NCBI GenBank assembly: GCA_004297165.1
Contig: SCUJ01000008.1
Span: forward strand, 186,001-250,000
Source of the DNA: Gammaproteobacteria bacterium
Lineage (GTDB): Bacteria; Pseudomonadota; Gammaproteobacteria; Eutrophobiales; Eutrophobiaceae
Length of the DNA: 64,000 nucleotides
Direction: 5' to 3'
The notes beneath the pieces are model-generated. The model had not been told where the DNA came from. It made no database searches and was given only the letters and a program-made list of their open reading frames with translations. Shown here one piece after another: positions 43,850 through 62,716 of this stretch. The position numbers were made by a program, and so were the translations under genes. The stretch's first letter is position 1. The number at the start of each line of letters is the position of its first letter.

Positions 43850-43927
43850 GCCAGATTTCCAGAGATCATGACCTTGCTACGTCTAATTGCAGAAACTATA
43901 AATTACAGTGGCAAGTTCAGGTATCGA

Positions 43928-45061
43928 CTATGAACCCGGTTTGTCCTGCCTGCGTGAAGCTGTCAACAAATCACGAAACCTCCTGACGAGCATGTGCCCT
44001 TCAATGTACATCTGATGTTGCAAGTTTCCAGAGACCTGCGATGTCTGCAAACTATATTCATACCCGACGTTCCCCTTCAATTTTTCCTTATAGAAAGAAT
44101 TCTTTCCCCCGCCGACCAGGAAATCGTAAAGATGGATTGCAGGATCCTGAAAGGCTTCTTCCAGCGCATAACCAAGGTGCAGCGTGCCAAGCGATACTTT
44201 TTTATCGAAATCGCCGATAAAAACGGAATGCAGGTTGTAGCGCCTGCCTCCGGCGTGGATATCGTAGATTGCCGATACCTCTTTACCATCCACATGCATG
44301 ACGCAGTACACCGGCTTTAGATAGGTTTCACAGCAATCCGCCAACCTTTTGTGGAAATCAATTTCCGCTTGTTCCGGTTGTGCTTGCCTGCGATCCAGAT
44401 GCAAGCGGCATAATAATCTGAAAAACGATTCCCGACCCGCGCTGTCGTCATGCGCGACCCGCTCCAGGCGCATCCTGCCCCCCAAGTAGGACCTCCTATT
44501 GAAGAGCTTCAGCCTGGTATTGCTGCCCAGGGAACCGAGCCATTCCTGGAAACTGCCTGTGGTGTCGATGCACACCCCTCTATCCTGGCCACGCAGGGTG
44601 ACTTTTCGCCCCATAGTACCCAACGTATCCAGGATCACGGGAGAATGATCGCAGATGATCATATCGTCCCATTTCATGGAACGAAGATGCATCGTGATCG
44701 CCCGCATCGCCTCGGTCTCACGTCCCTTTCTGAGGATGAATCCGGTGTGCTCCGATCTGACAGTCAGATGTCTCCAGATATTGCCTATAAATTGCAACTG
44801 ATATCCTGAAGGGCCCAGAGTACGCCTGACCCTGTGCCTGTATAGTGGGGCGATCCCGATTATTTCCAGATTATCCCTGACGGTAAGCAGAAGTAACTCC
44901 AAGGCATGCAGACTTGACCACGTTTGCCACCAGGAATGGCACCAAGGCCAACTTGCGAATATTGGATCCGCTTCTGAATCTGCAAGACACTCTTGCCATT
45001 CTACTCCAAACTGATCAAACTGCCTGTCTGACAGCTCCTCTACTTCAATTCCACTATTCAT
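43928..45061 (-). CDS. GNAT-type acyltransferase, CelD/BcsL-like, second copy
   Basis: The 377-residue product has the same layout as its neighbour: FASWPWCHSWWQTWSSLHALELLLLTVRDNLEIIGIAPLYRHRVR and DGKEVSAIYDIHAGGRRYNLHSVFIGDFDKKVSLGTLHLGYALEEAF, followed by YDFLVGGGKNSFYKEKLKG. The two are clearly diverged, so this is not a recent duplication. It starts 4 bases after the GT2 stop. The acyl group is unknown. Confidence 0.82.
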   Translation of the reverse strand: MNSGIEVEELSDRQFDQFGVEWQECLADSEADPIFASWPWCHSWWQTWSSLHALELLLLTVRDNLEIIGIAPLYRHRVRRTLGPSGYQLQFIGNIWRHLTVRSEHTGFILRKGRETEAMRAITMHLRSMKWDDMIICDHSPVILDTLGTMGRKVTLRGQDRGVCIDTTGSFQEWLGSLGSNTRLKLFNRRSYLGGRMRLERVAHDDSAGRESFFRLLCRLHLDRRQAQPEQAEIDFHKRLADCCETYLKPVYCVMHVDGKEVSAIYDIHAGGRRYNLHSVFIGDFDKKVSLGTLHLGYALEEAFQDPAIHLYDFLVGGGKNSFYKEKLKGNVGYEYSLQTSQVSGNLQHQMYIEGHMLVRRFRDLLTASRRQDKPGS

Positions 45062-48234: not shown

Positions 48235-49746
48235 TCACCGGTTAGTTGCCGTGGCGAATGCACGGTCCGCGTGCTGCGCCAAACCCATAAAGACATCCCG
48301 TAAACCTTCACACGCGGTTTTACAATCCGCCTGGATGATCGTCAGGCCAGCATAGCTTCGACCAGAAAATATGGTCGCCACCTCGAGAATCTTCGCCATA
48401 TACCGGTCAGGGCTGATTCGCCCTCCGATATCGAACCAATACCAGAGCAGTTTTATATCCCCGGTTCTGATATTTATCATTTCCAATTCCTTTATGTTTA
48501 GCGTGCGCTGATGCCCCGCGACACTCACGCGCTCTTCCTTCCCCAGATGCCATACCTCCGGATCGACAAAGCTCCTGTAATAAGGCAGGTAGTTTCTGGA
48601 TGATATGTTCTTCTGATAAATAGCGGATGCCACATGGATAGTTCCCGGATCCGCTTCGTAAAGTACAGCAGAGGCATGTGCCGGCCGGTAGATTTGGTCA
48701 CCAAAATAATAAACCGATTCGTAAGGGTCCTGTGATACGGATTCGAGTTGACCATAACCTGTGAGGACCGGATCAGCCGCCAGAAATTGCCCCTGTTCCA
48801 GGGCTGAAATTCTCGCCGCCAGGGGTCCACTGCATGCGGTCAAGCAGACCAGCATCCAGACAGCCACTTGGGCGCCTGCAACCTGTGGGATTGCCTGGAC
48901 AGGCAAGTTTGCTGCGGGGTCCGGTCTTGTATATTGTCCTAAACGTGAAGTCAGAACATAGACCGGGCTGAAGATAATCAGAAACAGCACCCAACCGAAC
49001 ATTTCATGCTCCTTTATCAACCCACTCTCCATCTCCGTGTAATACCCAATCATCACCAGAAGATATACCCGAATCCAGTTTGTCAACAACCCAAGCATCA
49101 CCCCCATGAGCGCCACCAGAATACGTAAAGCAGTCCTCATCGAGGTCAGATAGGCAGAAAGCGAGGATAACGCTGTGCAGATAATCAGATACCTCAATCC
49201 CGAACAACCTGCCGCCACTACGATCGTACCCGATGACAGGGTTATTCTGTCAGCTTCGATAAAGGCGGTAATCCCGGAGAGCCGGACAAGCCCGGTTACA
49301 ACATATACAGTGAGCGATATCAGCAAGTCATTGAGGTAATCCCAGGCGGGGATCGCAAAATAAAGAAATGCCAGCGGGAACCAGAGCAGTTTAAAGATCC
49401 CGGGGCCATGTGCGAGAAACGCCACCAACAAAAGGATGAGCGGCAGCAGGAGTTGCTGCACTATCTCGATATCGATCTGAAAAGACAGGAACCACAGAAT
49501 GTTTAACAGTAATAATGGAATTGCTGCCAAATAATTTGGATTGGATGGCGAATCGAGTATTTCCTTTCTTCTCTCATATATAAGATAAAGGACAATAAGC
49601 AACACCAGGAAACCGTGTCCATAAGCCTCATCGAATTTTACCCACCGCCTGTACAGGGATGCGACTGTTTCGGAATAGGCAGCAAGGAATACAGGTACAA
49701 ACAACAACCACCCAAGCACCCTGGGATTCGAGGTAAGTATCTTCAT
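48235..49746 (-). CDS. xrtA: Exosortase A fused to an EpsI domain
   Basis: The 503-residue inner-membrane protease/transpeptidase would cut and anchor PEP-CTERM proteins. About eight membrane helices carry the catalytic triad: Cys181 (VAAGCSGLRYL), Arg226 (NWIRVY) and His247 (KEHEMFGW). After about residue 280 a periplasmic EpsI-type domain continues to the end (ESVYYFGDQIYRPA, WYWFDIGGRISPDRYMAKI). The ATG at 49746 overlaps the stop of the deacetylase gene (ATGA); a longer ORF upstream is an artefact of that gene. No PEP-CTERM substrate is encoded in this window. Confidence 0.95.
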   Translation of the reverse strand: MKILTSNPRVLGWLLFVPVFLAAYSETVASLYRRWVKFDEAYGHGFLVLLIVLYLIYERRKEILDSPSNPNYLAAIPLLLLNILWFLSFQIDIEIVQQLLLPLILLLVAFLAHGPGIFKLLWFPLAFLYFAIPAWDYLNDLLISLTVYVVTGLVRLSGITAFIEADRITLSSGTIVVAAGCSGLRYLIICTALSSLSAYLTSMRTALRILVALMGVMLGLLTNWIRVYLLVMIGYYTEMESGLIKEHEMFGWVLFLIIFSPVYVLTSRLGQYTRPDPAANLPVQAIPQVAGAQVAVWMLVCLTACSGPLAARISALEQGQFLAADPVLTGYGQLESVSQDPYESVYYFGDQIYRPAHASAVLYEADPGTIHVASAIYQKNISSRNYLPYYRSFVDPEVWHLGKEERVSVAGHQRTLNIKELEMINIRTGDIKLLWYWFDIGGRISPDRYMAKILEVATIFSGRSYAGLTIIQADCKTACEGLRDVFMGLAQHADRAFATATNR

Positions 49747-50591
49747 TCCCCAGCCATTTGCGCCAGGAACACCCGATCCATCCGATCCCAGCGAAAATCC
49801 GTCAGCAGGCTGGAAAGCCGGGTTTCCATCCGGGCCAGATTCAGGTAATGCCGAGTTCTGGTCCGGATATCCAGGGCTGCCTGCCGGGGCTGATCGGCAT
49901 CCAGTTCCCAGGGATGGAAATAGAAGACGCAAGGCTGATTTTCCACGACATTCAATCTGCGAATCAGAAATCTGGAAAACGCATAGGGGTACAGACGAAA
50001 ATACCCGCCGCCACCACACGGCAAGCGCTTGCCAAGCAGCATGCAGGTCGACACCGGGATTTCCAGGAGTTTTCCTGGATTCGTCCGATAGGCAAACCGG
50101 GCCCCATCCGGTACGCCGTAGAGATCGTGTCGGATGGGATAGATGCTGGAACTGTAACGATACCCCGCCTGCTCGAGTTCATCATGCGCCCAGTGATGTT
50201 CCCGATCGATGGAGTAGCTGGCGGCGCGGTACCCGGATACGGATATTCCACAAAGATCCTCAAGGATCCGTTTTGTCCGGATGATATCCTCCCGAAATTC
50301 CTCAGGCGACTGATTGAACACCCTGATGTGCGAATATCCATGGCTGGCGATTTCATGCCCGGCTTCCGCGATCCTTTTGATGGACCCGGCGTACCTTTCC
50401 GCGATCCAACCCAGTATAAAGAAAGTCCCCTTTACATCGCGTTCAGAAAATAGAGCGAGAATCTTGTCGATATTGCGATCCAGTCTTCTTGGCAAAGAAG
50501 ACCAACTGGTTCTTTCGATGTAATTCTCAAAGGCGGATACCTGAAAATATTCCTCCACATCGACGCTGAGGGAGTTAACGATCATATTCAT
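49743..50591 (-). CDS. XrtA-associated polysaccharide deacetylase (DUF3473 type)
   Basis: The 282-residue NodB-fold enzyme starts LSVDVEEYFQVSAFE (catalytic Asp region), has KGTFFILGWIAERY, EIASHGYSH (metal-binding His pair), SGYRAASYSID, and a DUF3473-like C-terminal part CGGGGYFRLYPYAFSRFLIRRLN, FYFHPWELDADQPR. This form is a constant member of XrtA loci. It removes acetyl groups from the polymer during or after export. Start is the first or third-residue Met. Confidence 0.94.
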   Translation of the reverse strand: MNMIVNSLSVDVEEYFQVSAFENYIERTSWSSLPRRLDRNIDKILALFSERDVKGTFFILGWIAERYAGSIKRIAEAGHEIASHGYSHIRVFNQSPEEFREDIIRTKRILEDLCGISVSGYRAASYSIDREHHWAHDELEQAGYRYSSSIYPIRHDLYGVPDGARFAYRTNPGKLLEIPVSTCMLLGKRLPCGGGGYFRLYPYAFSRFLIRRLNVVENQPCVFYFHPWELDADQPRQAALDIRTRTRHYLNLARMETRLSSLLTDFRWDRMDRVFLAQMAGE

Positions 50592-50604
50592 TCAAGGAAT
50601 TGCA

Positions 50605-51480
50605 TCACTGATTGTTCCGCGCTTGCCCTGGCTCCATCAGTTCCTCTTCATCCCCATCTCCGCCGCTCCAGTACTCGCCTTCGATGTCGATTAGGACTTC
50701 GTCGAACACACGCTCGTCGATACGATGCAGTTCTTCTATGCAGGCGTGCAGAAGCAGTCTGTCGCAAAGCAGGTTGATTTTTCTTGGCAATCCCTTGGTA
50801 TGCTGATAAATCCGCGCGAATACGGGCTGATCGAGAGAGGGGTCATCATTCCAGCCTACGATATTCAGTCTGTGCAGTATGTACTCACGGGTCTCCGCCT
50901 CGGATAACGGTCTCAAGTGATAAGTAGCGATGATCCTTTGCCTGAGCTGCTCATGGCCCCTGGATCTCAGCATGTTTCGGAATTCTTTCTGGCCGAGAAG
51001 GAAACTTTGCACCAATTGCCTGCCGTTACTCTGGAGATTTGAGAGCATGCGCAATTCCTCTAGCGATTTAGGCGTCAGATTCTGGGCCTCGTCAACCACC
51101 AGCAATACCCGTTTGCGATCCTCTGCGCTGCGCTGGAAGAATTCATTAAGATTCTGGATCAGTGAAGCCTTGTCGAGATTTCTGTATTCCACGCCGAATT
51201 CCGCCGCGGCCATGCGGAGTAGATCCGCGGGCTGGAGCTGCGAATTCACGATATGCGCGGTGATGATGTTGCTCTGATGTATGGACCTGAGCAATCTGCT
51301 TACCAAGGTGGTTTTTCCGGTGCCGACATCCCCCGTTATAATGATGAATCCCTCCCCCTGCTCGATGCCATAGCGTAGATAGGACAAGGCCCGCTTGTGC
51401 GTGGCGCTTCCGTAAAAAAATCTCGGGTCCGGATTAAGCCGGAACGGCTTCGCCTTGAATTTGAAATAGGATTGATACAT
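50605..51480 (-). CDS. XrtA-associated AAA ATPase (ExeA-like)
   Basis: The 291-residue product starts MYQSYFKFKAKPFRLNPDPRFF. Walker A GDVGTGKTT lies at residues 50-58 and Walker B VLLVVDEAQNL near 125-133; sensor and lid blocks GQKEFRNML and GLPRKINLLCDRLLLHA follow. It is the family of cytoplasmic ATPases found with PEP-CTERM/XrtA genes, whose role in secretion or assembly is not established. It lies 16 bases downstream of the outer-membrane barrel gene and 13 bases before the deacetylase gene. Confidence 0.93.
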   Translation of the reverse strand: MYQSYFKFKAKPFRLNPDPRFFYGSATHKRALSYLRYGIEQGEGFIIITGDVGTGKTTLVSRLLRSIHQSNIITAHIVNSQLQPADLLRMAAAEFGVEYRNLDKASLIQNLNEFFQRSAEDRKRVLLVVDEAQNLTPKSLEELRMLSNLQSNGRQLVQSFLLGQKEFRNMLRSRGHEQLRQRIIATYHLRPLSEAETREYILHRLNIVGWNDDPSLDQPVFARIYQHTKGLPRKINLLCDRLLLHACIEELHRIDERVFDEVLIDIEGEYWSGGDGDEEELMEPGQARNNQ

Positions 51481-51496
51481 TAGGCGTCACACCCGG

Positions 51497-52963
51497 TCAG
51501 AAAGCCTTGCTGAATCCCGCATACACGCGCGCTTCATCGTACTCGGACAGCGGTGTCGACGAGTTTCTGATCATATAGGAAATCCCGCCCTTGATTAGGA
51601 AATTTTCGCCTAAAAGATAATGGATCTCCCCGTTGGAAATCAGGTATTCCTCCCCCAGATCACTCATCGTCATGGAATCAATCCACCGGCAACTCAATTC
51701 AGTGCTGGTTTTTCTGCTGAACTCTATATTCCAGCTCAAGCCTGCTTGCCGCAGGGTTTCATTTCTGCCGCTGACCTCGTATTCCCTGTCAGTATCGGTA
51801 AATTCAAACATCACACGCTGATGATTAAGCGTAACTCCTAGAACCAGGTTCAATCGTTTTTGAATGAATACCTCGTTGGTCTGTATCGGGGCCCCCACGC
51901 TGATGTCTCCCGGCACGGCGGCATCGAGGCCCGTAACGATATTCCCCAGGGGGTCCGTGTTGCTGAAAACCTGTTGCTCCGTCAGGATGTTCCGTGTGGT
52001 TTCAGGCTCGATGGAATACCCGATGCTCAACATTAACCGGCGCATCCGGTGTGTGGCCTTTACATTCAAGTCCGTCCCGAAATACCTTCTCCCGTACAAC
52101 AGTAGCAGGGATGTTCTTACGGAAGGGTTCCATTCCACCCCGACATTCCATAGCGGTCCATCGACCTCGCTGACGCTCGAATATCTGTTCGAGTCATACC
52201 CCCCCGAGGTCACCAGGGCCAGACTCCTTCCCAGCAGATACCGGAACCGGCCGGTGACATTTTCCAGAACCACGGTGGCATCGGACTGATAATCCTGTCT
52301 GTCGCTGTTGAAGCTCAGGTCCCAGAGCAGGCGATTGAAGGCCGCGCCGTTTTTCATGGACAGGAGGTAGCGGCTTGATTCTGAATCGTCACGTTCCGTC
52401 TGGATTCCGCCGGTTGAATACTTCAGTTCCACGTCCGCTAAATTGCCAAACTGGTAGTGCACGGCCGGATCGATCGAATACCGCAGCACATTAGAGGTAT
52501 CGCCCGACAAGGTCAGGTTGTCATAACCGTTCTGGCCGCTGTTGGATATATTCTGCTGGCTGTTAGCCAGGGAAGCATCGAGAAACACCAGATCGCGCAG
52601 TAGAGTGAAACGCCCGTTGATATCCGCCAGATGAAACAACCGGTTATCATCCCTGACTGCGTAATAATTATCCTGCAGGCTGTAGTCCAGAGACAGGTCC
52701 ATCAGCCTGTTCTGCGCGGTGATGAGAAGTCCTGGAGTCGTGGTAGTGACAGCATCCCCTGTTGAATTTCCTGTCTGGGCGTTGCTGGTATAGAGTTGTT
52801 GCACCGCGATTCTTGGCGTCAGGCGGAGATCAGCGGCAGCAACTGGCACGGTTCCGGATACTCCCACGGATGCGGCCGCCAAGAAGGAGATCAGCGGAAA
52901 AGTCTTATGATGCAGCCGTTTTATTCTTGCCGTAGCTGCTGTAATAACCATATTCGCTGCCAT
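51497..52963 (-). CDS. XrtA-associated outer-membrane beta-barrel protein (TIGR03016-like)
   Basis: The 488-residue product has a signal-like segment (to about residue 44, ending VPVAAA) and then alternating polar/aromatic strands such as LDASLANSQQNIS and LVTSGGYDSNRYSS, ending in YAGFSKAF with a terminal Phe as in outer-membrane porins. It is the large barrel of the exosortase locus, probably the outer-membrane exit or anchoring pore for the polymer. The start at 52963 overlaps the kinase gene end by 59 bases; Met5 (52951) is the alternative. No clear ribosome binding site is seen for either, so it may depend on coupling. Confidence 0.85.
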   Translation of the reverse strand: MAANMVITAATARIKRLHHKTFPLISFLAAASVGVSGTVPVAAADLRLTPRIAVQQLYTSNAQTGNSTGDAVTTTTPGLLITAQNRLMDLSLDYSLQDNYYAVRDDNRLFHLADINGRFTLLRDLVFLDASLANSQQNISNSGQNGYDNLTLSGDTSNVLRYSIDPAVHYQFGNLADVELKYSTGGIQTERDDSESSRYLLSMKNGAAFNRLLWDLSFNSDRQDYQSDATVVLENVTGRFRYLLGRSLALVTSGGYDSNRYSSVSEVDGPLWNVGVEWNPSVRTSLLLLYGRRYFGTDLNVKATHRMRRLMLSIGYSIEPETTRNILTEQQVFSNTDPLGNIVTGLDAAVPGDISVGAPIQTNEVFIQKRLNLVLGVTLNHQRVMFEFTDTDREYEVSGRNETLRQAGLSWNIEFSRKTSTELSCRWIDSMTMSDLGEEYLISNGEIHYLLGENFLIKGGISYMIRNSSTPLSEYDEARVYAGFSKAF

Positions 52964-53819
52964 AGCGCTGGTTGCTTTTATTGAGAATGATGCCCAACAG
53001 TTTTTCCCGGTTTACTCTGCGCAGCGCCTCTTCCACAAAATATCGGGGAGTTTTTTCCGCCTCCACCACCATAATGATCTTGCCCGCCGATCTGGCGATT
53101 GCGGCTGTGGAGGTATCTTGCAGTAGCGGCGGCGTATCGATGATTATCAAGCGATCTCTATAGCGCTTGGATAACTCCTCCATCAGCACCTGCATGCGCT
53201 TGCTGTTGTAGAGTTCAGTCGCTCGTTCGTGAAACCTCCCACTCGGCAATACAGTAAATTTCTCGATATTGGTGTTCAGCAGCAAATCCGCAAGATCCGA
53301 TTTCTCGGAGGTAAGGTAATCGAGTAAACCAGGCCGATTAGATATATCAAATATCGTACTGGAGGTTTTTTTGTATACATCGCCGTCGATGAAGAGAACC
53401 CGGTTGTTGTATTCGTAGGCAATGCTCAACGCCAGATTGATGGACGAATACGTCTTGCCTTCCCCCGGGACAGAGCTCGTGATCACAATGATGTTACTGT
53501 TATTGACAACCTCGAACCTCTCATCCTCCGAGAGAACTTGCATCTTGATATGTCGGTATTGCTCGAATAGATGCAGATTGCTTGTTTCCGGTGTGATATA
53601 CCCAAGAGCATCCAGTTTTTTGAGATCTATGGTGATGGTATTGGATGATTTTCTTGACCGATTTTCGATACCGCCGGCTAAATCTGCTGTCATTTCGCAC
53701 TCTTCCTGGAACAGCGGAATATCCGTGCTGTGTTCAGACCCCGGTTTATCACCTGAAGTCGATACTGCGGAAGCCAGGGCGCTATCCAGTTTATCCAACG
53801 CTTTTTCGATTATGCTCAT
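52905..53819 (-). CDS. XrtA-associated bacterial tyrosine kinase (TIGR03018-like)
   Basis: The 304-residue cytoplasmic BY-kinase has Walker A VPGEGKT (117-123), Walker A' LFIDGD (142-147) and Walker B LIIIDTPP (about 214-221). The C-terminal tail holds five tyrosines (286, 290, 292, 293, 296), the autophosphorylation cluster. The chain-length protein is encoded separately upstream, so this is a split Wzc-type system. Its phosphorylation state would control polymer length and export. The last 59 bases overlap the start of the barrel gene. Confidence 0.94.
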   Translation of the reverse strand: MSIIEKALDKLDSALASAVSTSGDKPGSEHSTDIPLFQEECEMTADLAGGIENRSRKSSNTITIDLKKLDALGYITPETSNLHLFEQYRHIKMQVLSEDERFEVVNNSNIIVITSSVPGEGKTYSSINLALSIAYEYNNRVLFIDGDVYKKTSSTIFDISNRPGLLDYLTSEKSDLADLLLNTNIEKFTVLPSGRFHERATELYNSKRMQVLMEELSKRYRDRLIIIDTPPLLQDTSTAAIARSAGKIIMVVEAEKTPRYFVEEALRRVNREKLLGIILNKSNQRYGSEYGYYSSYGKNKTAAS

Positions 53820-53827
53820 GGGAATGC

Positions 53828-55420
53828 TCAGCCCGGCGTTGTCACGAAACGACTCAGCAGCGCCATCGAATCCTTGTTGAGCATTACCAGGACATACATG
53901 CCAATTAATGCAATCGACATTATTACATACGTTACCATGCCTAATCGGCGCTGCTTCAAGTCCTCCCTGGCCCAGGACATGGAAACGGAACCCAACACCG
54001 GGATGCTCATGCCCTCCTCGATCTGTTTTATGGTGTAGAATGTCGGCCGGAATTGTTCAAACATGACGGCGCAGCCAACGCCGCCCACAATCCCCAGGAA
54101 CAGCACGGCAGTAATCAATCTGAATCTATCCGGACTCACCGGAGTAAGCGGTATAATGGGAGGTTCGATAATATTGAACTGGGTTTCGTTGGCTGTCTGC
54201 TCCGCTTCCCTGGATAGTTGCGCTGAGGCGCGCCTGGAAACCAGTTCGTTATAGGTTTGACGGGTAATGTCATAATCCCGGTTCAGCCTGGTCAACTCGG
54301 CCTCAACTTCAGGGATGGTGCTCAACAGCTTATTCATTTCCTCGATGCGGCGATTGTATTCCCCGACCCTGGTTTGCAACGCGGCAATTTCAGCCTCCTT
54401 CTCGCCCAGCAATACATTCAAGTCCTGGTAGAGTCCGGAATCGACGATGCCGGCCTGTCTTTCGGGAACATCGTTGGCATCGTCCTGGCGTTGATCCCGC
54501 TTCTGCCGTTTAAGCTCTTCCAATGCAGCGCGGGTGGACGCCACATCGGGGTGTCTCTCTGTATACTGAAGCAACAATTCATCCAGTCTGGCCTGCAAGC
54601 TCGCTATCCTGCTATCCAGGGGATCCTCGATCAGCGGAGATTCACCGCCACCGCCTTCCGCAGTCGCCAGAAAATTCTGGATCTGTTTCTGCAAAGCCGT
54701 CCGCTCGTTATGTTTCTCGCTGAGCTCCAGAGTAGCGGCGTCCAGATTCGTTTTCAGCGCGTTCAATCTGGTGTAATAAGTGCTGCCCTCCTCTGGCATG
54801 GCGCCGGCATGTTCCTGTTTAAATAGTTTCAGCCGTTCCTCCGCCATCTCCAGGTTAGCGGCGTACTCTTCGATCTGTTTGTCGAGAAAGCTTTCCGCCT
54901 TGTCGCTGTCCTTGCGGCTCGATCCGAGTATCGTTTCGACAAAAATGTTAAGAATGGATTCGACAACTTTCTTCGCTACAGCCGGGTTATTATGCCGATA
55001 AATAATGCTATAAAGATTGCTCATCTCGGTGCGCATGCCAGGAATATCGACCGTCTTGATGACGATGTTTTCCTGAAGCTTTTCGATGAGGCGATTCATC
55101 TCCTTATCCTCGGTTACATTAATATCCAGGTCGGCATCGGTAATTACTTTCAGCATATTGGCCCGGGTGAGGAGAGTTCTGCGCACTAGTTGGGCGGATT
55201 CTTCCCGCATGGCGTTCTCCACCGCAAGCCCTTCAAGCAGGGGTTTGAGCACCGTCTTGGTATCGAAATAGACCCTCGTTTCGACTTCGAAGACGTCCGG
55301 TATGAAACCTATGCCGATCCAGCCGCATACTGTCAGTACGATAGCGCTGAGCAACGCAATCCAGCGATGGTGTATCACCATCCAGAGATAGGTGAATGCA
55401 AGCTCCAGGAATTCCCTCAT
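53828..55420 (-). CDS. XrtA-associated chain-length determinant protein (Wzz-like, TIGR03007)
   Basis: The 530-residue inner-membrane co-polymerase has a membrane helix near residues 20-37, a long periplasmic region with coiled coil (residues about 150-420, rich in Leu, Glu and Arg), the SPDRFRLITAVLFLGIVGGVGCAVMFEQ second helix region and a C-terminal helix. Wzz family blocks FDTKTVLKPLLEGLAVENAM and VSRRASAQLSREAEQ are recognisable. No kinase domain is fused; the kinase follows 8 bases later. It sets chain length and links to the export pore. Confidence 0.93.
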   Translation of the reverse strand: MREFLELAFTYLWMVIHHRWIALLSAIVLTVCGWIGIGFIPDVFEVETRVYFDTKTVLKPLLEGLAVENAMREESAQLVRRTLLTRANMLKVITDADLDINVTEDKEMNRLIEKLQENIVIKTVDIPGMRTEMSNLYSIIYRHNNPAVAKKVVESILNIFVETILGSSRKDSDKAESFLDKQIEEYAANLEMAEERLKLFKQEHAGAMPEEGSTYYTRLNALKTNLDAATLELSEKHNERTALQKQIQNFLATAEGGGGESPLIEDPLDSRIASLQARLDELLLQYTERHPDVASTRAALEELKRQKRDQRQDDANDVPERQAGIVDSGLYQDLNVLLGEKEAEIAALQTRVGEYNRRIEEMNKLLSTIPEVEAELTRLNRDYDITRQTYNELVSRRASAQLSREAEQTANETQFNIIEPPIIPLTPVSPDRFRLITAVLFLGIVGGVGCAVMFEQFRPTFYTIKQIEEGMSIPVLGSVSMSWAREDLKQRRLGMVTYVIMSIALIGMYVLVMLNKDSMALLSRFVTTPG

Positions 55421-55469
55421 GATAAATTTCTGATTGAAATGCGATGCTGAGCGATGATCGTAGAACTAT

Positions 55470-56117
55470 CTAAAACAATGACTCGGGGATGATCACTATA
55501 TCGCCAGGCTGCATCGGGATGTTGGCGCTTATATCGCCTTTCTTTATCAGATCATCTATGCGCACGCCGATCTGGGTTTGACTGCCTTGTGAGTCGCGGA
55601 CAATGGTAGATTTGTTCCCGCCGGCGAATTCCGTGACTCCGCCCACCTCGATCATCACATCAAGCAGGGTCATATTCGTACGATAAGGCAGAGCCCTTGG
55701 TGTAGTTGCTTCACCGATAACCCGAATCTGCTGGTCGAACCCCCCCACAAAACTCACTACAGTCACAGTAACCAGTGGTTCGCGAATATACTGCGCCAAG
55801 ATCTCCTCGATCTCGCGGGCGAGTTGGGTAGGCGTCTTGCCGCTGGCCATCAAATCTTCGACAAGCGGCGAAGAGATCCTGCCATCCGGTCTCACGGGCA
55901 CTGTATTGGTGAGATCCGGATTTCTCCAGACAAATATCTGCAGTTGATCGCCGGGACCAATTTGATAATCAAAAGCTCCGGCCTTGCTCTGTGTGGACGT
56001 ATCCGAAGAATTGTCACGAATCCCCCGTGAGGTTTCACAGGCCGCCATCAGGCTAAGGATGAGGGGGATAACCCCGCAAGCGATCAGGTAACTTACAGCT
56101 CTGGCTTGTTTTTGCAT
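55470..56117 (-). CDS. XrtA-associated polysaccharide export lipoprotein (OPX, TIGR03027-like)
   Basis: The 215-residue product has a lipoprotein signal with LMAAC (Cys27), so it is lipid-anchored. The export domain follows: YQIGPGDQLQIFVWRNPDLTNTVPVRPDGRISSPLVEDLMASGKTPTQLAREIEEIL (about residues 50-105), then SLBB-like VIGEATTPRALPYRTNMTLLDVMIEVGG and MQPGDIVIIPESLF. ATG at 56117 with GGAGA upstream is chosen, as the ORF start further up is not signal-like. It is the first gene of the minus-strand XrtA block. Confidence 0.93.
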   Translation of the reverse strand: MQKQARAVSYLIACGVIPLILSLMAACETSRGIRDNSSDTSTQSKAGAFDYQIGPGDQLQIFVWRNPDLTNTVPVRPDGRISSPLVEDLMASGKTPTQLAREIEEILAQYIREPLVTVTVVSFVGGFDQQIRVIGEATTPRALPYRTNMTLLDVMIEVGGVTEFAGGNKSTIVRDSQGSQTQIGVRIDDLIKKGDISANIPMQPGDIVIIPESLF

Positions 56118-56281
56118 AGATCGTCTCCAATCCGGCCAGGACTCCAACCAGGGGCAAGTATTGATGTTCAATTGTCCAGGAAATACCAAACCAATTAACA
56201 GGTTATAGACTTCATATCATCTCGGCAACGCGATTTTACAGATACGCGATGAGTATACATTGAAACCCGCTCATTGTCCCC

Positions 56282-56569: not shown

Positions 56570-58504
56570 ATGTGTGGCATCGTCGGTGTTTTGAATCTTG
56601 ACGGGCGCCCCGTTTCTGAAGATCTGCTTCACCGGATGGCTTGGAACCTCCGCCACCGTGGACCAGATGAGTCTGGGGTCATCACCGATGGGGCCCTTGG
56701 CCTCGCCCACACCCGCCTCAGCATCATAGACCTTGCCGGCGGGCGGCAGCCGATGTCCGCTTTCGATGGCGATCTGTGGATCTCCTTCAACGGAGAAATC
56801 TTCAACCACCTTGAAATCCGCGCTAATTTAGAACGAAAAGGCCACCAATTCACAACCCGTTCGGACACCGAGGTCATTCTCCATTCCTATGCCGAAAAAG
56901 GCGAGGATTGCGTCAAGGACTTCAACGGACAATGGGCATTCGCCATCTGGGATCGTCGTCGCAGGCGGTTGTTTCTGTCAAGAGACCGGCTGGGGGTACG
57001 CCCACTGTTTTACACAAGGACAAAGGACGTCTTCATCTTTGCCTCTGAAATCAAGGCCATCTTCGCGCACCGGAAAGTACCGCGGGCGATCGATCACGAG
57101 GGGCTGGATCAGATTTTTTCCTTCTGGTGTTGCCTCCCACCCAAGACATTCTTTAAAGGGATCTCGGAGCTTCCGGGCGGCCACTCCATGCGGGTGGAAG
57201 ATGGCCGGATAACACTTTATCCCTATTGGCGGTTGGACTATCCAAACGGCGCTTCCCTGACAGACGAAAACCCTGATCTTCTCGCGGAGGAATTAAAGGC
57301 ATTGCTCGTGGATGCCACACGCCTGCGTCTGCGCGCGGACGTCCCTGTTGGCGCCTACCTTAGCGGCGGGTTGGACTCCACAGTCACCACTGCCCTTATC
57401 CGCCATTACACGAATGCCCCTCTTAGGACATTTTCCGTTAGTTTTGAGGATCCTGGATTTGACGAAAGCCCTTTCCAACATGAGGCGAGTACATTCCTGG
57501 GAACCGACCATCAGGAAGTGCACTGCCGTGCGGAGGATATCGCGAAGGTCTTTCCGGATGTTATATGGCACACTGAAAAGCCTATCCTCCGCACCGCACC
57601 GGCGCCTCTCTATCTACTCTCCAGATTGGTCCGCGAGAGTGGATTTAAGGTAGTCATGACCGGGGAAGGCGCCGATGAAGTCTTCGGCGGTTATGACATC
57701 TTCAAGGAAGCCAAGATCCGCCACTTTATGGGCCGATCTCCCGGATCCCGGTGGAGGCACTTGCTCCTGAAGCGGCTTTATCCGTACTTGACGAACCTGC
57801 AAAAACAGCCAGAAGCCTATCTGGCCTCTTTTTTCAAAGCGCGTCCGCAGGACCTCACGGACCCATGTTATTCTCATTTCCCGCGGTGGGATATGACGGC
57901 CATGATCAAGATGTTTTATTCCCCCGAGTGGAAGGAGCGCCTTGCCGGTTTCGATGCGAGGGGTCTTCTAAGGGGCTCTCTCCCGCGGGAGTTTCACAAC
58001 TGGGACGATTTTTGCCGCGGTCAGTACCTGGAAACCGCCATCCTTTTACCGGGGTACATCCTTTCATCCCAGGGAGACCGCATGGCGATGGCCCATTCGG
58101 TGGAAGGGCGTTTTCCGTTCCTGGATCATCGCTTGGCCGAGTTCGGCGCGAAACTTCCGCCGCGTCTCAAAATGAAAGGACTCAATGAGAAATACCTGCT
58201 TAAGAAGTGCATGACGGACCTGATTCCGAAATCGGTCCTCACGCGGCCCAAACAACCCTACCGTGCCCCGGAGGGTCAATGCTTTACAGCTCCAGGCGCC
58301 CCGGACTACATATCCGAACTTCTTTCCAGTAAGAGACTTAGAGAGGAAGGCATTTTTCAGCCTTCCGCAGTTGAGAAGCTGCTCGACAAATTCCGACACG
58401 GCATGGCTGTAGGCATCAAGGACAATATGGCGCTGGTGGGCATTCTTTCAACTCAGATTTCAGCAGACCAGTTCATCCAGAATTTTGACAGCCATACAGC
58501 CTAA
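56570..58504 (+). CDS. AsnB-family amidotransferase (asparagine-synthase-like)
   Basis: The 644-residue product has an N-terminal glutaminase domain with nucleophile Cys2 (MCGIVGVLNLDG), NLRHRGPDESG and ISFNGEIFN, and a C-terminal PP-loop synthetase domain with YLSGGLDST (about residues 262-270). TGEGADEVFGGYD and MAMAHSVEGRFPFLDHRLAEF are further synthetase motifs. Asparagine synthase homologues in polysaccharide loci amidate carboxylates of uronic acids or acyl groups; the true substrate here is not known. The XrtA-associated amidotransferase family is a close alternative description. It is the first of four closely packed genes ending in a NadE-like gene. Confidence 0.88.
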   Translation: MCGIVGVLNLDGRPVSEDLLHRMAWNLRHRGPDESGVITDGALGLAHTRLSIIDLAGGRQPMSAFDGDLWISFNGEIFNHLEIRANLERKGHQFTTRSDTEVILHSYAEKGEDCVKDFNGQWAFAIWDRRRRRLFLSRDRLGVRPLFYTRTKDVFIFASEIKAIFAHRKVPRAIDHEGLDQIFSFWCCLPPKTFFKGISELPGGHSMRVEDGRITLYPYWRLDYPNGASLTDENPDLLAEELKALLVDATRLRLRADVPVGAYLSGGLDSTVTTALIRHYTNAPLRTFSVSFEDPGFDESPFQHEASTFLGTDHQEVHCRAEDIAKVFPDVIWHTEKPILRTAPAPLYLLSRLVRESGFKVVMTGEGADEVFGGYDIFKEAKIRHFMGRSPGSRWRHLLLKRLYPYLTNLQKQPEAYLASFFKARPQDLTDPCYSHFPRWDMTAMIKMFYSPEWKERLAGFDARGLLRGSLPREFHNWDDFCRGQYLETAILLPGYILSSQGDRMAMAHSVEGRFPFLDHRLAEFGAKLPPRLKMKGLNEKYLLKKCMTDLIPKSVLTRPKQPYRAPEGQCFTAPGAPDYISELLSSKRLREEGIFQPSAVEKLLDKFRHGMAVGIKDNMALVGILSTQISADQFIQNFDSHTA

Positions 58505-58525
58505 TCGACACAACGGGAGCCCCTC

Positions 58526-58780
58526 ATGCGGATCGATGACGTGAAAAACGACTTGAGAAAATTTATAGTGGACAATTTCTATTTCGGCGAGGAACTCGAC
58601 TTCTCCGATTCCGACTCATTCCTAGAAAAGGGCATCATTGATTCCACGGGGACACTGGAACTTATCGCCCATCTTGAAAATACTTACCATATCAAGGTCA
58701 ATGATCAAGACTTGACGCCGGAAAACCTGGACTCTGTAGATCGGCTTGCGGCGTTTATAGAGAAGAAAACAGAGCCCTGA
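58526..58780 (+). CDS. Acyl carrier protein
   Basis: The 84-residue phosphopantetheine carrier is strongly acidic. The attachment Ser40 is in KGIIDSTGTLELIAHLE, the DS(L/T) motif in variant form (usual DSL). It is 3 bases upstream of the AMP-ligase gene, so the ligase probably loads an acyl or aminoacyl group onto it. It is not part of fatty-acid synthesis genes here. Confidence 0.93.
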   Translation: MRIDDVKNDLRKFIVDNFYFGEELDFSDSDSFLEKGIIDSTGTLELIAHLENTYHIKVNDQDLTPENLDSVDRLAAFIEKKTEP

Positions 58781-58783
58781 TCC

Positions 58784-60343
58784 ATGCAAGTTGAAGAATT
58801 CCTGGAACGCAGCGCCAAACGCATGCCAGACAAGACCGCCCTGGTCTGCGACGGGAGGCGACTGACCTATGCCCAACTTGAAGACATGGCCAACCGCCAA
58901 GCCCACGCACTAATCCGGGAAGGCATAGAACGCGGTGACCGGGTTGCAATCTATTTGGACAATACCGTAGAGGCTGTCATCTCCGTCTTCGGAGTCCTCA
59001 AGGCCGGCGGTGTGTTCCTGGGCATTAATCCGACAACCAAGGCCGACAAGGTGGCTTTAACCCTGAATAATTGCAGTGCTTCAGCTCTCGTCACAGATGC
59101 CAGTAAATGGACTAATGTGATTGAGGTTTTTGAGAATTCCAACAACTTGAGGACCGTGATGGTAACGGGCGGTAATGGTCACAGCATGACTGGCAAGAAC
59201 GTCATGTCTCTCGAATCGGTCCTGGAAGATCATCATTTGCCGGACGCACCGCCGCCAAAGAAGAACATCGACATGGACCTCGCAGCCCTCATATACACGT
59301 CGGGATCCACGGGAAGATCCAAGGGTGTCATGCTTACGCATCTGAACATCGTTTCCGCCGCCACCTCCATCACCAGCTACCTGGACAACCGGCCCGATGA
59401 TGTTATTCTCAGCGCCCTGCCACTTTCCTTTGGTTATGGATTATGCCAGGCACTAACGGCCTTCCAATTCGGTGGCACTTTGGTGTTGGAGCGGTCTTTC
59501 GCGTATACCCACGCGGTACTGGAAACGCTTGCCCGGGAGAAGGCAACGGGATTCCCGATTGTCCCGACCATGGCCGCCATCCTCCTTGGTCTGGACCTGA
59601 AGAACTACGATTTTTCGTCCCTCCGTTACATCACCAATGCCGCCGCCGCCCTCCCGACGGACCACATTCAGCGACTACGAAAATTCTTTCCCCATGTTGC
59701 CCTCTATTCTATGTATGGGCTCACCGAATGCATACGGGTCTCATATTTATCACCGGATCAGATTGATATCCGACCCGCCTCCGTCGGACGCGCCATACCC
59801 AATGAGGAGGTCTACATCGTGGACGAGGAGAACCGGCGTGTGACGCCGGGTGTAGTCGGAGAGTTAGTGGTGCGCGGCGCCAACGTGATGAAAGGATACT
59901 GGGAGGACCCGGAAGGGACCCGGCAAAGACTAAAACCCGGCCCCTTGCCCAACGAATGTGTGCTTCACACGGGAGATCTTTTCCGCGCAGACGAAGAGGG
60001 TTACCTCTATTTCGTGGCACGGCGGGACGACATCATAAAGAGTCGCGGAGAAAAAGTAAGTCCCCGTGAAGTAGAGGAAGTCCTCTGTACACACCCTGAT
60101 GTAATGGAGTCCGCCGTAATCGGACTGCCAGATCCTATTTTAGGGCAAGCCATCTGCGCAGTCATCTCGGTACGGGACGGATCCGAGTTGAAGCCCGGAG
60201 AACTCCAGGCACACTGTAAAAAACACCTGGAGGATTTCAAGATTCCGAAGCACATCCTCCTGCTTCAGGAAAGATTACAGAGGACGCCCAACGGCAAGAT
60301 CGACAAGAAGTTGCTTCCCGACCTGTTCAAGGAGCCCGACTGA
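58784..60343 (+). CDS. AMP-forming acyl-CoA/acyl-ACP ligase
   Basis: The 519-residue ANL-superfamily enzyme has the P-loop YTSGSTGRSKG (171-181), YGLTECIR (A5), the hinge block TGDLFRADEEGYLYFVARRDDIIKSRGEKVSPREVEE, and catalytic Lys505 in PNGKIDKK. Length fits XrtA-associated acyl-CoA ligases as well as stand-alone adenylation domains. It presumably activates a carboxylic or amino acid for transfer to the carrier protein upstream. The TGA shares its A with the ATG of the next gene (TGATG). Confidence 0.92.
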   Translation: MQVEEFLERSAKRMPDKTALVCDGRRLTYAQLEDMANRQAHALIREGIERGDRVAIYLDNTVEAVISVFGVLKAGGVFLGINPTTKADKVALTLNNCSASALVTDASKWTNVIEVFENSNNLRTVMVTGGNGHSMTGKNVMSLESVLEDHHLPDAPPPKKNIDMDLAALIYTSGSTGRSKGVMLTHLNIVSAATSITSYLDNRPDDVILSALPLSFGYGLCQALTAFQFGGTLVLERSFAYTHAVLETLAREKATGFPIVPTMAAILLGLDLKNYDFSSLRYITNAAAALPTDHIQRLRKFFPHVALYSMYGLTECIRVSYLSPDQIDIRPASVGRAIPNEEVYIVDEENRRVTPGVVGELVVRGANVMKGYWEDPEGTRQRLKPGPLPNECVLHTGDLFRADEEGYLYFVARRDDIIKSRGEKVSPREVEEVLCTHPDVMESAVIGLPDPILGQAICAVISVRDGSELKPGELQAHCKKHLEDFKIPKHILLLQERLQRTPNGKIDKKLLPDLFKEPD

Positions 60344-61326
60344 TGGTTTTCTCGCGCGACATTTTAAAACTCGACCCTGCGTCGGAAGTCTCCACTATCG
60401 TGGCGGCCATTCGTTTCCAGGTCGGGCAGGAACTCAAGCGCAAGGGCGCCGTTCTGGGACTTTCCGGCGGTATTGATTCAAGCGTTTGCGCCGCGCTCTG
60501 CGCACGGGCCCTCGGGAAAGACCGCGTGCTCGGTCTCTTCATGCCTGAGGCGGATTCCTCGGGCGATAGCTTGCGCCTCGGTCTGCTTTTGACGGAGACC
60601 CTGGGCATCCCTTCCTGCCTGGAAGACATCACGCCCGTTTTGAACGGGGCGCGATGCTACGAACGCAGAGACGACGCCATCCGTAAAGTGCTCCCTGATT
60701 TTGGTCCTGGCTGGAAATGCAAAATTGTCCTGCCCGGGATACTGGATGAGGCCGCCTACGCCTTTTTCTCCATCATCGCGCAATCGCCAGAAGGCGTTCA
60801 GACCAAGGCGCGTCTCACCCTTGACGCCTATCTCGGTATCGTGGCGGCGACAAATTTCAAGCAGCGGACCAGGCGGATGATGGAGTACTACCATGCCGAC
60901 AGACTCAATTACGCTGTCGTCGGCACGCCAAATCGCCTTGAATACGACCAGGGGTTCTTCGTCAAAAACGGCGACGGCGCGGCGGATTTCAAGCCAATTG
61001 CCCATCTGTATAAATCGCAGGTCTACCAGCTCGCGGAGTATCTTGGTGTGCCTGAGGAGATCCGGCGCCGCCCTCCGACGACCGATACCTACTCCCTGGA
61101 GCAATCCCAGGACGAATTCTATTTTTCCCTCCCTCTGGAGAAGCTGGACTTATGCCTGTGGGCGCTTGGACATGGCATATCTGCCGAGGAAGCTGCCCCC
61201 ATTGTGGACTTGACTCAGGCGCAGGTGGATCGCGTTTACAGCCAGATCCAGGCGAAGCGCCGATCGACGCGCTATCTCCACATGAGGCCACTCTTAGTCC
61301 GGGAAGTCACAGAAATTCATCCTTAA
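60343..61326 (+). CDS. NadE-like PP-loop ATP pyrophosphatase (annotated NAD synthase fold)
   Basis: The 327-residue product has the PP-loop LSGGIDSS (40-47) and, further on, NYAVVGTPNRLEYDQGFFVKNGDGAADFKPIAHLYKSQVYQLAEYLGVPEEI as in NH3-dependent NAD synthases. The region after it (PPTTDTYSLEQSQDEFYFSLP) departs from the canonical NadE loop. There is no N-terminal nitrilase/glutaminase domain. Being translation-coupled to a ligase and carrier protein suggests that it amidates a pathway intermediate rather than making NAD. A genuine NAD synthase cannot be excluded. Confidence 0.82.
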   Translation: MVFSRDILKLDPASEVSTIVAAIRFQVGQELKRKGAVLGLSGGIDSSVCAALCARALGKDRVLGLFMPEADSSGDSLRLGLLLTETLGIPSCLEDITPVLNGARCYERRDDAIRKVLPDFGPGWKCKIVLPGILDEAAYAFFSIIAQSPEGVQTKARLTLDAYLGIVAATNFKQRTRRMMEYYHADRLNYAVVGTPNRLEYDQGFFVKNGDGAADFKPIAHLYKSQVYQLAEYLGVPEEIRRRPPTTDTYSLEQSQDEFYFSLPLEKLDLCLWALGHGISAEEAAPIVDLTQAQVDRVYSQIQAKRRSTRYLHMRPLLVREVTEIHP

Positions 61327-61397
61327 GGCGCGTCATTCGTCATGGAATCTATTCATCTGAGATAAAATGGCCTACCTCAGCGTAGTGGAGAATTAAA

Positions 61398-62096
61398 ATG
61401 CAAAAATTAGCTTCGATATACAGATATATTCTACGGTTATGCATTATTTCACTCATCTGTGGAGGTTCACTCATGGCGGAAGAAATATACACTAAACCGG
61501 ACAGACATCTCGTGCTGGTGGGGGCCTCCATAGGCAAAGAATGGCATTTGGAGGAACTTGGCAAGCGGATCCAGGCCCCGGGGTACCGCTTTAGTTACGT
61601 CGGGACCTACGATTTCGATAAGGGAGACTTGATTGACGGATTGATCAAGGACGTGGACAAGCCTGACATCGTGCTGATCAAGGAATGCTCCTCATACTTT
61701 CCCGGCGACCTGGACAGCTACGAACGTAAGATCTCTGGATGGGTAGACATGTTGAAGACGGCCGGGATTCGACCCATCCTTGTCACGACCGCCCCAGTGG
61801 GCAAGCCGGACGACTACATCGTTCGCTTGAAAAATGTGGTAAAAATAATTATAGGCAGACCGACTAAACAAGGAAGCGTCGCTGAGTTCAATGACTGGAT
61901 GAAGGAGTACGGCCGACGCATTGGCATCCCCGTGTTCGACCTCGAATCCATCTTGATCCTCAGCCCTGAGGAACGCTGGCTGCGTCCGGAATTCGATTCC
62001 GGCGATAAAACACATCTTACAGCCAGGGCTTACGAAGCGATGGACCGTGCTTTTGCCCGTTTTCTGCCAAATCTGGACAAGGCTCCCGACAAATAA
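61398..62096 (+). CDS. SGNH-like hydrolase/esterase, secreted
   Basis: The 232-residue product begins with a signal peptide or anchor (residues 1-26, ILRLCIISLICGGSLMA). The GDSL-like nucleophile block is LVGASIGKEW (Ser44) and the catalytic dyad is probably Asp203/His206 in GDKTHLTARAYE. KECSSYFPGDLDSYE and PILVTTAPVGKP lie where blocks II and III would be, but the block III Asn is unclear. It may be an O-acetyl esterase or transferase acting on the exopolysaccharide. It follows the NadE-like gene by 71 bases and has a GGAG site upstream. Confidence 0.75.
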   Translation: MQKLASIYRYILRLCIISLICGGSLMAEEIYTKPDRHLVLVGASIGKEWHLEELGKRIQAPGYRFSYVGTYDFDKGDLIDGLIKDVDKPDIVLIKECSSYFPGDLDSYERKISGWVDMLKTAGIRPILVTTAPVGKPDDYIVRLKNVVKIIIGRPTKQGSVAEFNDWMKEYGRRIGIPVFDLESILILSPEERWLRPEFDSGDKTHLTARAYEAMDRAFARFLPNLDKAPDK

Positions 62097-62119
62097 ACGG
62101 TATCGGTGACGTCTCCACC

Positions 62120-62716
62120 ATGGCGACAAAACAGCACCTATGGTTCCCTTTAATACGGCAGGATTTAGGCCGCTATTTTGATCCTGACCAGGGAGCCAAT
62201 TACTTCAAGAAGGCAAAAATATTTTTAGATACGCCAGGCTTGCAGGCAACGCTGGTTTACCGGTTTGGTTTCTGGGTGGAACGTAAAGTTTCCTCCGTAT
62301 GGTTCAGGCTTCCCTTGAAATTATTGTATTATTTTCTTGATAAGGCGATGGTCATTCTTTGGGGTATACACATCGATCCGCTGGCGGAAATCGGCGGCGG
62401 CCTCTATATCGGACACTACGGTGGCGTTCTTATCGGTCCAGTGCGGGTCGGAACGGACTGCAACATCAACCATCAGGTCACGATGGGGCTAAGGGCAGAC
62501 GGGATACCCGGTGTCCCCACCATAGGTAACCGCGTTTGGATCGGGGCTGGCTCGATCCTCTTCGGCGCAATTCGGGTGGGAGACGGGGCAACCATCGGCC
62601 CCCTTACGGTAGTATCTAGAAGCCTGCCGAACAATGTCCTGGTCGGAGGCAACCCCATGCGCCTCGTTCGCAAGAACTACGATAACAGCGCTCTGCTTCG
62701 CAGAATCCCTGAATAA
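62120..62716 (+). CDS. Hexapeptide acyltransferase (serine O-acetyltransferase-like)
   Basis: The 198-residue product has a CysE-like layout: DLGRYFDPDQGANYFKKAKIFLDTPGLQATLVYRFGFWVE, then a left-handed beta-helix (about residues 88-180) with GGGLYIGHYGGVLIGPVRVG, INHQVTMG, GVPTIGNRVWIGAGS and VLVGGNPMRLVRK. It uses an acetyl or acyl-CoA. Given the neighbouring carrier protein and ligase it may acylate a sugar or amino acid; true serine acetyltransferase for cysteine synthesis is possible too. It is the last plus-strand gene of the cassette. Confidence 0.85.
   Translation: MATKQHLWFPLIRQDLGRYFDPDQGANYFKKAKIFLDTPGLQATLVYRFGFWVERKVSSVWFRLPLKLLYYFLDKAMVILWGIHIDPLAEIGGGLYIGHYGGVLIGPVRVGTDCNINHQVTMGLRADGIPGVPTIGNRVWIGAGSILFGAIRVGDGATIGPLTVVSRSLPNNVLVGGNPMRLVRKNYDNSALLRRIPE

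Follow-up and report, generated by a model that had tools for sequence, protein, structure and literature searches.

In D-alanylation, the adenosine monophosphate (AMP)-forming ligase DltA and the small carrier DltC activate an acid for polymers of the cell envelope, and in tetracycline biosynthesis the AsnB-type enzyme OxyD is thought to act on a malonyl unit held on a carrier or on coenzyme A. The system considered here lies in a stretch of 64,000 nucleotides from a Gammaproteobacteria bacterium (assembly GCA_004297165.1, contig SCUJ01000008.1, positions 186,001 to 250,000 of the forward strand), called the window below, where four closely packed genes beside an exosortase block encode an AsnB-type amidotransferase, an acyl carrier protein, an AMP-forming ligase and an enzyme of the NadE fold. 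We favor, tentatively and at somewhat less than an even chance, the reading that this cassette is a mobile module which builds an amide-bearing acyl or aminoacyl group on its dedicated carrier which would then be attached to an amino group on some other molecule; in this locus the likeliest acceptor is an amino sugar of the exosortase-linked exopolysaccharide. The window's carrier differs from DltC, falling far under the cut-offs for that protein (26 of 68 and 20 of 52), and the cassette differs from the Dlt system in having amidotransferases. The likeness to OxyD is one of description, and no polyketide synthase occurs among the annotated genes of the window.

A ligase and carrier of this kind have been studied in Sinorhizobium meliloti. 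SMb20650, a predicted long-chain ligase, is described as cotranscribed with the carrier SMb20651, and expression of both with AcpS in Escherichia coli is reported, from an earlier paper, to have given acylated SMb20651, while smb20650 is reported to have restored neither growth on oleate nor fatty acid use in fadD mutants (PMC7232532). The function of SMb20651 is stated to need further investigation (PMC5686131, citing Ramos-Vega et al., 2009), the protein is listed as one of unknown function with a DST motif (PMC12391972), and smb20650 is given among the genes down-regulated under attack by Myxococcus (PMC10315480). We tie these two genes to the cassette because of their place on pSymB, the pairing of ligase and carrier, and the DST motif, the sole ties at hand; two other carrier-like matches on pSymB read DSL where the cassette carrier reads DST, although the family search used missed the cassette's own carrier and may have missed others. 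On pSymB of S. meliloti 2011 the genes stand in the order of the window (AsnB, carrier, ligase, NadE) on one strand, with identities to the window's genes of 55% for AsnB, 44% for the carrier, 50% for the ligase and 62% for NadE. Both carriers read DST, and the ligase has Asp where the window's has Gly217, a residue that varies within the type and does not define it. The 21 kb of pSymB examined gave no BLAST match to the SGNH-like or hexapeptide protein that follows the cassette in the window, and the copy in S. meliloti ml56 lies outside a polysaccharide locus; in that strain the ligase is split into two overlapping open reading frames (L132:10431-11977), where strain 2011 has a single frame. 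The abstract of the 2009 paper reportedly names the AsnB and NadE neighbors. In literature searches that covered NadE, exosortase, amidotransferase and carrier terms, the S. meliloti work was all that concerned the cassette, and no product was found in print. The preliminary description of the window, made from the letters alone, had put the cassette forward as an uncharacterized pathway, which is right as to its product but not as to the ligase and carrier. The operon is thus known, and its breadth and context are not known in print as far as we found; what is new here is that breadth, a constant core with a changeable ligase, and a set of recurring partners (GNAT, PrmC-like methyltransferase, SGNH and hexapeptide genes).

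A further system for comparison is that of Porphyromonas gingivalis, in which the AsnB-type WbpS is reported to be needed for a uronamide, and in which deacetylation by VimE and addition of serine or glycine by VimA are proposed to lead to 2-N-seryl, 3-N-acetylglucuronamide (PMC7468200). The same source places VimA-like and AsnB-like genes in exosortase loci and speculates on an amino acid-modified sugar there. The two systems are alike in that AsnB-family amidation is combined with a proposed deacetylation and GNAT-type aminoacyl transfer to an amino sugar, and the locus in the window has deacetylases (39374-40402 and 49743-50591) as well as GNAT-type genes (42689-45061). They differ in that the terms NadE, acyl carrier and AMP-binding are absent from the main text of PMC7468200, and in that WbpS is assigned there to TIGR03108, whereas the cassette's AsnB misses the cut-off of this family (456.9 bits against 816.9). 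The XrtA-associated ligase (TIGR03098) and amidotransferase (TIGR03108) are related sequences from the same kind of locus. The window's ligase is the best TIGR03098 match of its genome, but it too remains below the cut-off (504.2 bits against 592.35), and since both proteins miss the curated cut-offs we do not take them for the standard XrtA ligase and amidotransferase. Two more AsnB-type genes lie on the same contig (G000:C2:256003-257922 and 308409-310190), the first being the genome's best match to TIGR03108 at 569.4 bits, also under the cut-off.

The four genes form a conserved unit. A scan of a one-genome-per-species collection gave 70 loci with a NadE-like gene, and 12 of 299 genomes drawn from the phylum had one over the cut-off, the window's own genome among them; about 20 kb was examined around each locus where the contig allowed. 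The 81 loci compared, which exclude the window and are related to one another, include a well-flanked set of 40 whose two flanks each reach 7 kb or more, the 41 with less than 7 kb on one side being left out of it. As controls we took the ordinary nicotinamide adenine dinucleotide (NAD) synthase neighborhood of the same 12 genomes, one each, two of which (L130 and L131) have one short flank. AsnB, carrier and ligase were all present at 32 of the 40 well-flanked NadE-like loci, and at least one of them at all 40, while the same search found none of the three in any of the 12 controls; over all 81 loci, 57 had the three partners, 21 had one or two, and three had none. The order is variable (AsnB-carrier-ligase-NadE, NadE-AsnB-ligase-carrier and NadE-carrier-ligase-AsnB), and the association has therefore been kept through rearrangement. 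Distances among the NadE-like proteins track those of AsnB (Mantel r 0.81, n = 73), the carrier (0.72, n = 77) and the ligase (0.60, n = 75), figures that in part reflect host ancestry, as the hexapeptide gene taken for comparison also gives 0.43 (n = 11).

By record title, which for metagenomes is a label only, one four-gene set, in which a carrier is accompanied by two distinct amide-forming enzymes that use ATP, occurs in at least 10 phyla, the titles including Planctomycetota, Myxococcota, Acidobacteriota, Pseudomonadota, Gemmatimonadota, Actinomycetota, Bacteroidota, Ignavibacteria, Verrucomicrobiota, Spirochaetota and Desulfobacterota. Among the window's relatives the distribution is patchy, since in 20 genomes searched, its own included, a NadE-like gene over the cut-off was found solely in its own, and the closest ligases on the tree come from loci titled Acidobacteria and Planctomycetota; horizontal acquisition fits both observations. 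The patchiness would also suit a chance adjacency of four genes after such a transfer. We regard this explanation as next to impossible, given the recurrence of the same set in so many phyla and in several gene orders, and it is ruled out by the presence of all three partners at 32 of 40 loci against none at the controls.

The genes of the cassette and of its surroundings in the window are given in Table 1. Family searches bear out the names first given to the four cassette genes, and the coordinates of the open reading frames reproduce the packing reported for them, with gaps of 21, 3 and -1 bases. The AsnB protein matches Asn_synthase (1.6e-97) and GATase_7, exceeds the TIGR01536 cut-off (522 bits against 267), begins with MCG and thus has the glutaminase cysteine, and has the hydroxyamidotransferase 7ylz as its top-scoring solved chain. 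The carrier (PP-binding, 3.7e-05, 24.3 bits against a cut-off of 20.8) has the phosphopantetheine serine that had been claimed for it, in the motif GIIDSTGTLEL. The ligase matches AMP-binding (9.9e-96), and long-chain ligase models score it well, yet under their cut-offs. The NadE-like protein matches NAD_synthase (4e-49) and, over its curated cut-off of 313, NF002048 (511 bits). The SGNH-like and hexapeptide genes do follow on the same strand, although the Pfam match of each is below the cut-off (22.3 bits against 32.9 for SGNH; 25.5 against 27 for Hexapep); the hexapeptide protein further matches EpsC and CysE models (3e-24 and 4e-23), both under the NCBIfam cut-offs. Guanine plus cytosine (GC) fractions are 0.55 for AsnB, 0.45 for the carrier, 0.55 for the ligase and 0.58 for the NadE-like gene. 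The cassette had been described as differing in composition from the AT-rich transferases to its left, and so it does (0.45 for the transferases at 34.7-46.0 kb), but it is near the exosortase block (0.51); the region at 1-18 kb has 0.64.

Table 1. Genes of the cassette and of the adjoining locus, with coordinates in the window and functions as predicted from family matches
Feature	Coordinates	Strand	Details
AsnB-type glutamine amidotransferase	56570-58504	+	644 amino acids; glutaminase and PP-loop synthetase domains
Acyl carrier protein, DST-type phosphopantetheine motif	58526-58780	+	84 amino acids
AMP-forming ligase, class I	58784-60343	+	519 amino acids
Probable NadE-fold NH3-dependent amide synthase, PRK00876/NF002048 subfamily	60343-61326	+	327 amino acids
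SGNH-like protein	61398-62096	+	232 amino acids; likely N-terminal signal (judged by eye)
Hexapeptide-repeat acyltransferase, CysE/EpsC-like	62120-62716	+	198 amino acids
XrtA/PEP-CTERM block adjoining the cassette	48235-56189	-	exosortase, polysaccharide deacetylase, ATPase, outer-membrane protein, tyrosine autokinase, chain-length protein, export protein
Two GNAT-type genes (42689-43849, 43928-45061)	42689-45061	-	Acetyltransf_6 2.1e-24 and 7e-08
Polysaccharide deacetylase	39374-40402	-	Polysacc_deac_1 1.6e-23

The NadE-like gene had been held to lie outside standard NAD metabolism, and this is upheld. The window's own genome has a separate NAD synthase of 540 amino acids (C2:325033), and in all 12 genomes of the phylum with a NadE-like gene another match passes the TIGR00552 cut-off (in G282 and G167 barely so), which rules out the NadE-like protein as the sole NAD synthase. 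It is longer than the NAD synthase core, and roughly residues 105-165 separate the two segments that can be aligned to solved NAD synthases. Across 80 NadE-like sequences, the window's included, there is almost no variation in SGGxDS (the PP-loop), GTPNxLEYDQGFFVK and GDGxAD. An AlphaFold2 model built from 68 cassette sequences reached a mean predicted local distance difference test score (pLDDT) of 92.2, where a single-sequence fold reached only 38; the structures it matches best are those of NAD synthases and of the Francisella nicotinamide mononucleotide (NMN) synthetase (Z 29.2, root-mean-square deviation 2.5, 238 aligned positions, rows within 1 being tied). Model and motifs together make it very likely that the protein is active as an ammonia-dependent amide synthase. 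These same folds and the conserved motif block would also be expected if the gene encoded a true additional NAD or NMN synthase, serving to raise the NAD supply, with neighbors unrelated to it, an explanation that we nevertheless find very improbable in view of the linkage to AsnB, carrier and ligase across phyla, the correlated distances, and the other NAD synthase match in each of the 12 genomes.

From these observations a mechanism can be proposed for the module. The ligase would adenylate a carboxylic acid and load it on the serine of the carrier, a step backed by the loading of the S. meliloti carrier, with the ligase present, that is in print. AsnB would hydrolyze glutamine and convert another carboxylate, which probably belongs to the acid on the carrier, to the carboxamide; in the cassette loci, AsnB begins with MCG in 65 of 72. 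The NadE-fold enzyme might then make a second amide with ATP and ammonia, perhaps preferably on a sugar-nucleotide uronate, because the core of NAD synthase, which handles a nucleotide-diphosphate-linked carboxylate, is kept. Glutaminase and synthetase activity of AsnB and ammonia-dependent amidation by the NadE-fold enzyme are strongly implied by the sequences. Once a deacetylase has freed an amine, a FemAB/GNAT or hexapeptide transferase could pass the group on to it, and outside the cytoplasm the finished polymer may be edited by the SGNH protein. In the window, the two GNAT-type genes are candidate transferases of the carrier-bound group, and the deacetylase at 39374 could free the amino group of a sugar. 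If this reading is true, the NadE fold gains a role outside NAD synthesis, the annotation 'NAD(+) synthase' in such operons is probably a misnomer, and a handle is obtained on amide decorations of bacterial exopolysaccharides; copies in S. meliloti and Azospirillum brasilense, both of which can be worked with in the laboratory, make the question directly testable. It can be speculated further, at a level we judge improbable, that a pathway shared across phyla has recruited the NadE-fold enzyme, along with AsnB, the carrier and a ligase that can change, to make doubly amidated carrier-borne groups, and that in it the NadE-like enzyme would act on a nucleotide-linked uronate and AsnB on the carrier-bound acid. 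The outcome would be a family of amide-decorated glycans, which in exosortase loci might include the sugar compound proposed for use by exosortases, and PrmC-like methyltransferases would further methylate the amide nitrogen in some lineages.

The acid that enters the pathway appears to differ among lineages. With a required coverage of 80%, ligases could be compared from 74 loci and the window (L132, where the frame is split, being dropped), and 50 of these 75 are at least 40% identical to the window's ligase (class I), while 25 are not (class II) and mostly have a different pocket motif, L069 and L078 being exceptions with the class I motif SFDYGL. In adenylation domains, an Asp holds the amino group of the amino acid. 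Gly217 of the window's ligase aligns with this Asp in the adenylation domain of LgrA (gramicidin), and among the 50 class I ligases the position is Asp in 32, Gly in 11, the window included, and another residue in seven; on the tree, this position has changed state repeatedly (5 to 6 independent pairs). That the ligase activates a non-amino acid, as Gly217 might suggest, is weakened by the 32 with Asp and is possible for the window only. On our reading of the sequences, different acids, in many lineages amino acids, may feed the same amidation core, the cassette as a whole being a constant set of AsnB, NadE-like enzyme and carrier with a changeable ligase.

A fatty-acyl carrier system has also to be considered, in which the carrier would receive long-chain fatty acids from the ligase for a lipid whose head group is the target of the amidotransferases. 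The acylated SMb20651 obtained in E. coli with SMb20650 (PMC7232532) and the good scores with long-chain ligase models, below cut-off as they are, speak for it, whereas the failure of smb20650 to rescue fadD mutants in the same source speaks against it. Asp in the adenylation-domain position of 32 of 50 class I ligases, that of S. meliloti among them, would be odd for fatty acids, and altogether we consider such a system improbable.

Partner genes are distributed unevenly over the ligase types. PrmC-like methyltransferase genes, counted only where the match has NPPY (11 of 11 genes checked; three weaker matches, in control L121, L096 and L040, are not counted), occur at the loci of 11 of the 32 Asp-type ligases and of no other type. 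A GNAT-type gene is present at the loci of all 10 other Gly-type ligases against 9 of 32 Asp-type ones, but we claim no link between Gly217 and GNAT, as over only 5 independent pairs on starred branches of the tree a mean of 2.4 went the same way, none the opposite way, and 2.6 showed no difference (median p 0.5). Three other partners occur mostly at class II loci, namely an SGNH-like gene (cluster 6) in 10 of 25, a hexapeptide gene in 16 of 25 and a phosphopantetheinyl transferase in 5 of 25. In the window, SGNH and hexapeptide genes accompany a Gly-type ligase. These links between partner and class may largely be shared ancestry. Hexapeptide genes lie near 15 of the 40 well-flanked loci, and relatives of the window's SGNH-like protein near the cassette in L118 and L040. 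The secreted-looking SGNH-like family of cluster 6 (L098:4093-4956 and relatives), found at 14 of 81 loci, has invariant HxS and D..H motifs; it has no convincing sequence match in Pfam or the PDB, where a profile search gave three matches, the best at E 0.64.

The setting of the cassette is often, although not always, a polysaccharide locus. With marker seeds taken from the window and some cluster members, so that other markers are missed, polysaccharide markers were detected within about 10 kb of 28 of the 40 well-flanked loci and at none of the 12 controls; 20 of the 40 had markers of at least two kinds. Nearest to the window's layout is L118, in which relatives of the chain-length, kinase, ATPase and deacetylase genes are followed by AsnB-carrier-ligase-NadE and then by a hexapeptide gene, an SGNH relative and glycosyltransferases; its ligase is of class II, and no exosortase was seen in the stretch examined. 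In A. brasilense Sp7, the cassette stands with glycosyltransferases, a deacetylase and a GNAT gene. To the right of the window, the locus continues (L119) with a Polysacc_synt (flippase) gene, a glycosyltransferase, a further AsnB and a PEP-CTERM protein; with polysaccharide genes on both flanks, the cassette therefore lies inside one long polysaccharide locus and not at its edge.

Several points weigh against a role of the module in decorating exopolysaccharide. No marker was detected at 12 of the 40 well-flanked loci, and exosortase-like matches occur at only 3 of 81. Among plasmids, the NadE-like gene turned up in 116 records, most of them from Sinorhizobium, and the plasmid copies examined (Sinorhizobium, Mesorhizobium, Shinella and Nitratireductor) are stand-alone operons, with minCDE (S. 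meliloti), groES/groL (Mesorhizobium) or sugar transport genes (Shinella) as neighbors. The window's two GNAT genes are absent among the matches of the cassette-linked GNAT family, a gene of which occurs in 3 of the 12 controls (L120, L124 and L125). With 25 of 75 ligases in another class, no single acid is implied, and the 2009 abstract is said to report fatty-acid loading in E. coli by the S. meliloti ligase, which is not suggestive of a small diacid. The genome's two full matches of the UDP-sugar dehydrogenase type lie on another contig, C13, with only a match of 44 positions on C2. The share of host ancestry in the distance correlations belongs here too, as does the chance that the NadE-like enzyme may still accept deamido-NAD; the residues that contact this substrate in Bacillus subtilis NadE are presumably kept. 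Which enzyme amidates what is a guess.

The stand-alone copies speak for a pathway complete in itself whose product is a small amide, either diffusible or linked to a lipid (a natural product or modified lipid), and for which the exopolysaccharide context is one of several landing sites. GNAT-AsnB-carrier-ligase-NadE operons stand alone in L110/L111 and on the Shinella and Nitratireductor plasmids, the Nitratireductor copy (L137:1-4207) adjoining transposition genes of the Mu/TniB/TniQ type, and in L108 the NadE-like gene comes immediately after the end of a protein (L108:2359-5115) that combines AMP-binding with thioesterase domains and matches PP-binding only weakly. Set against this are the markers near 28 of 40 loci and the recurrence of hexapeptide, deacetylase and SGNH-like partners, and we hold this pathway to be possible but rather unlikely. 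The decoration of exopolysaccharide with an amidated or aminoacyl group, as first proposed for the window, thus keeps the support of a conserved unit and of the frequent markers, and the cassette is not found mainly outside polysaccharide loci in this sample; it is, however, not tied to such loci, as the unmarked loci and the plasmid copies show.

Some further observations concern the neighborhoods. L112 and L114 have ligase-like open reading frames of similar length at the place of the L108 protein. The control GNAT genes (L120:13484-14653, L124:13319-14500 and L125:13342-14508) stand beside the housekeeping glutamine-dependent NAD synthase, away from the cassette, and in L120 and L124 an ATP-binding cassette (ABC) exporter gene sits between the two. 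Two proteins of the window's locus have no Pfam match up to E 0.1 (32353-34530, 725 amino acids; L119:7247-8746, 500 amino acids). Finally, in Sorangium cellulosum So ce26 a phosphoribosyltransferase gene and a gene resembling aspartate/ornithine carbamoyltransferase (L072:8345-9918) lie directly upstream of the cassette.

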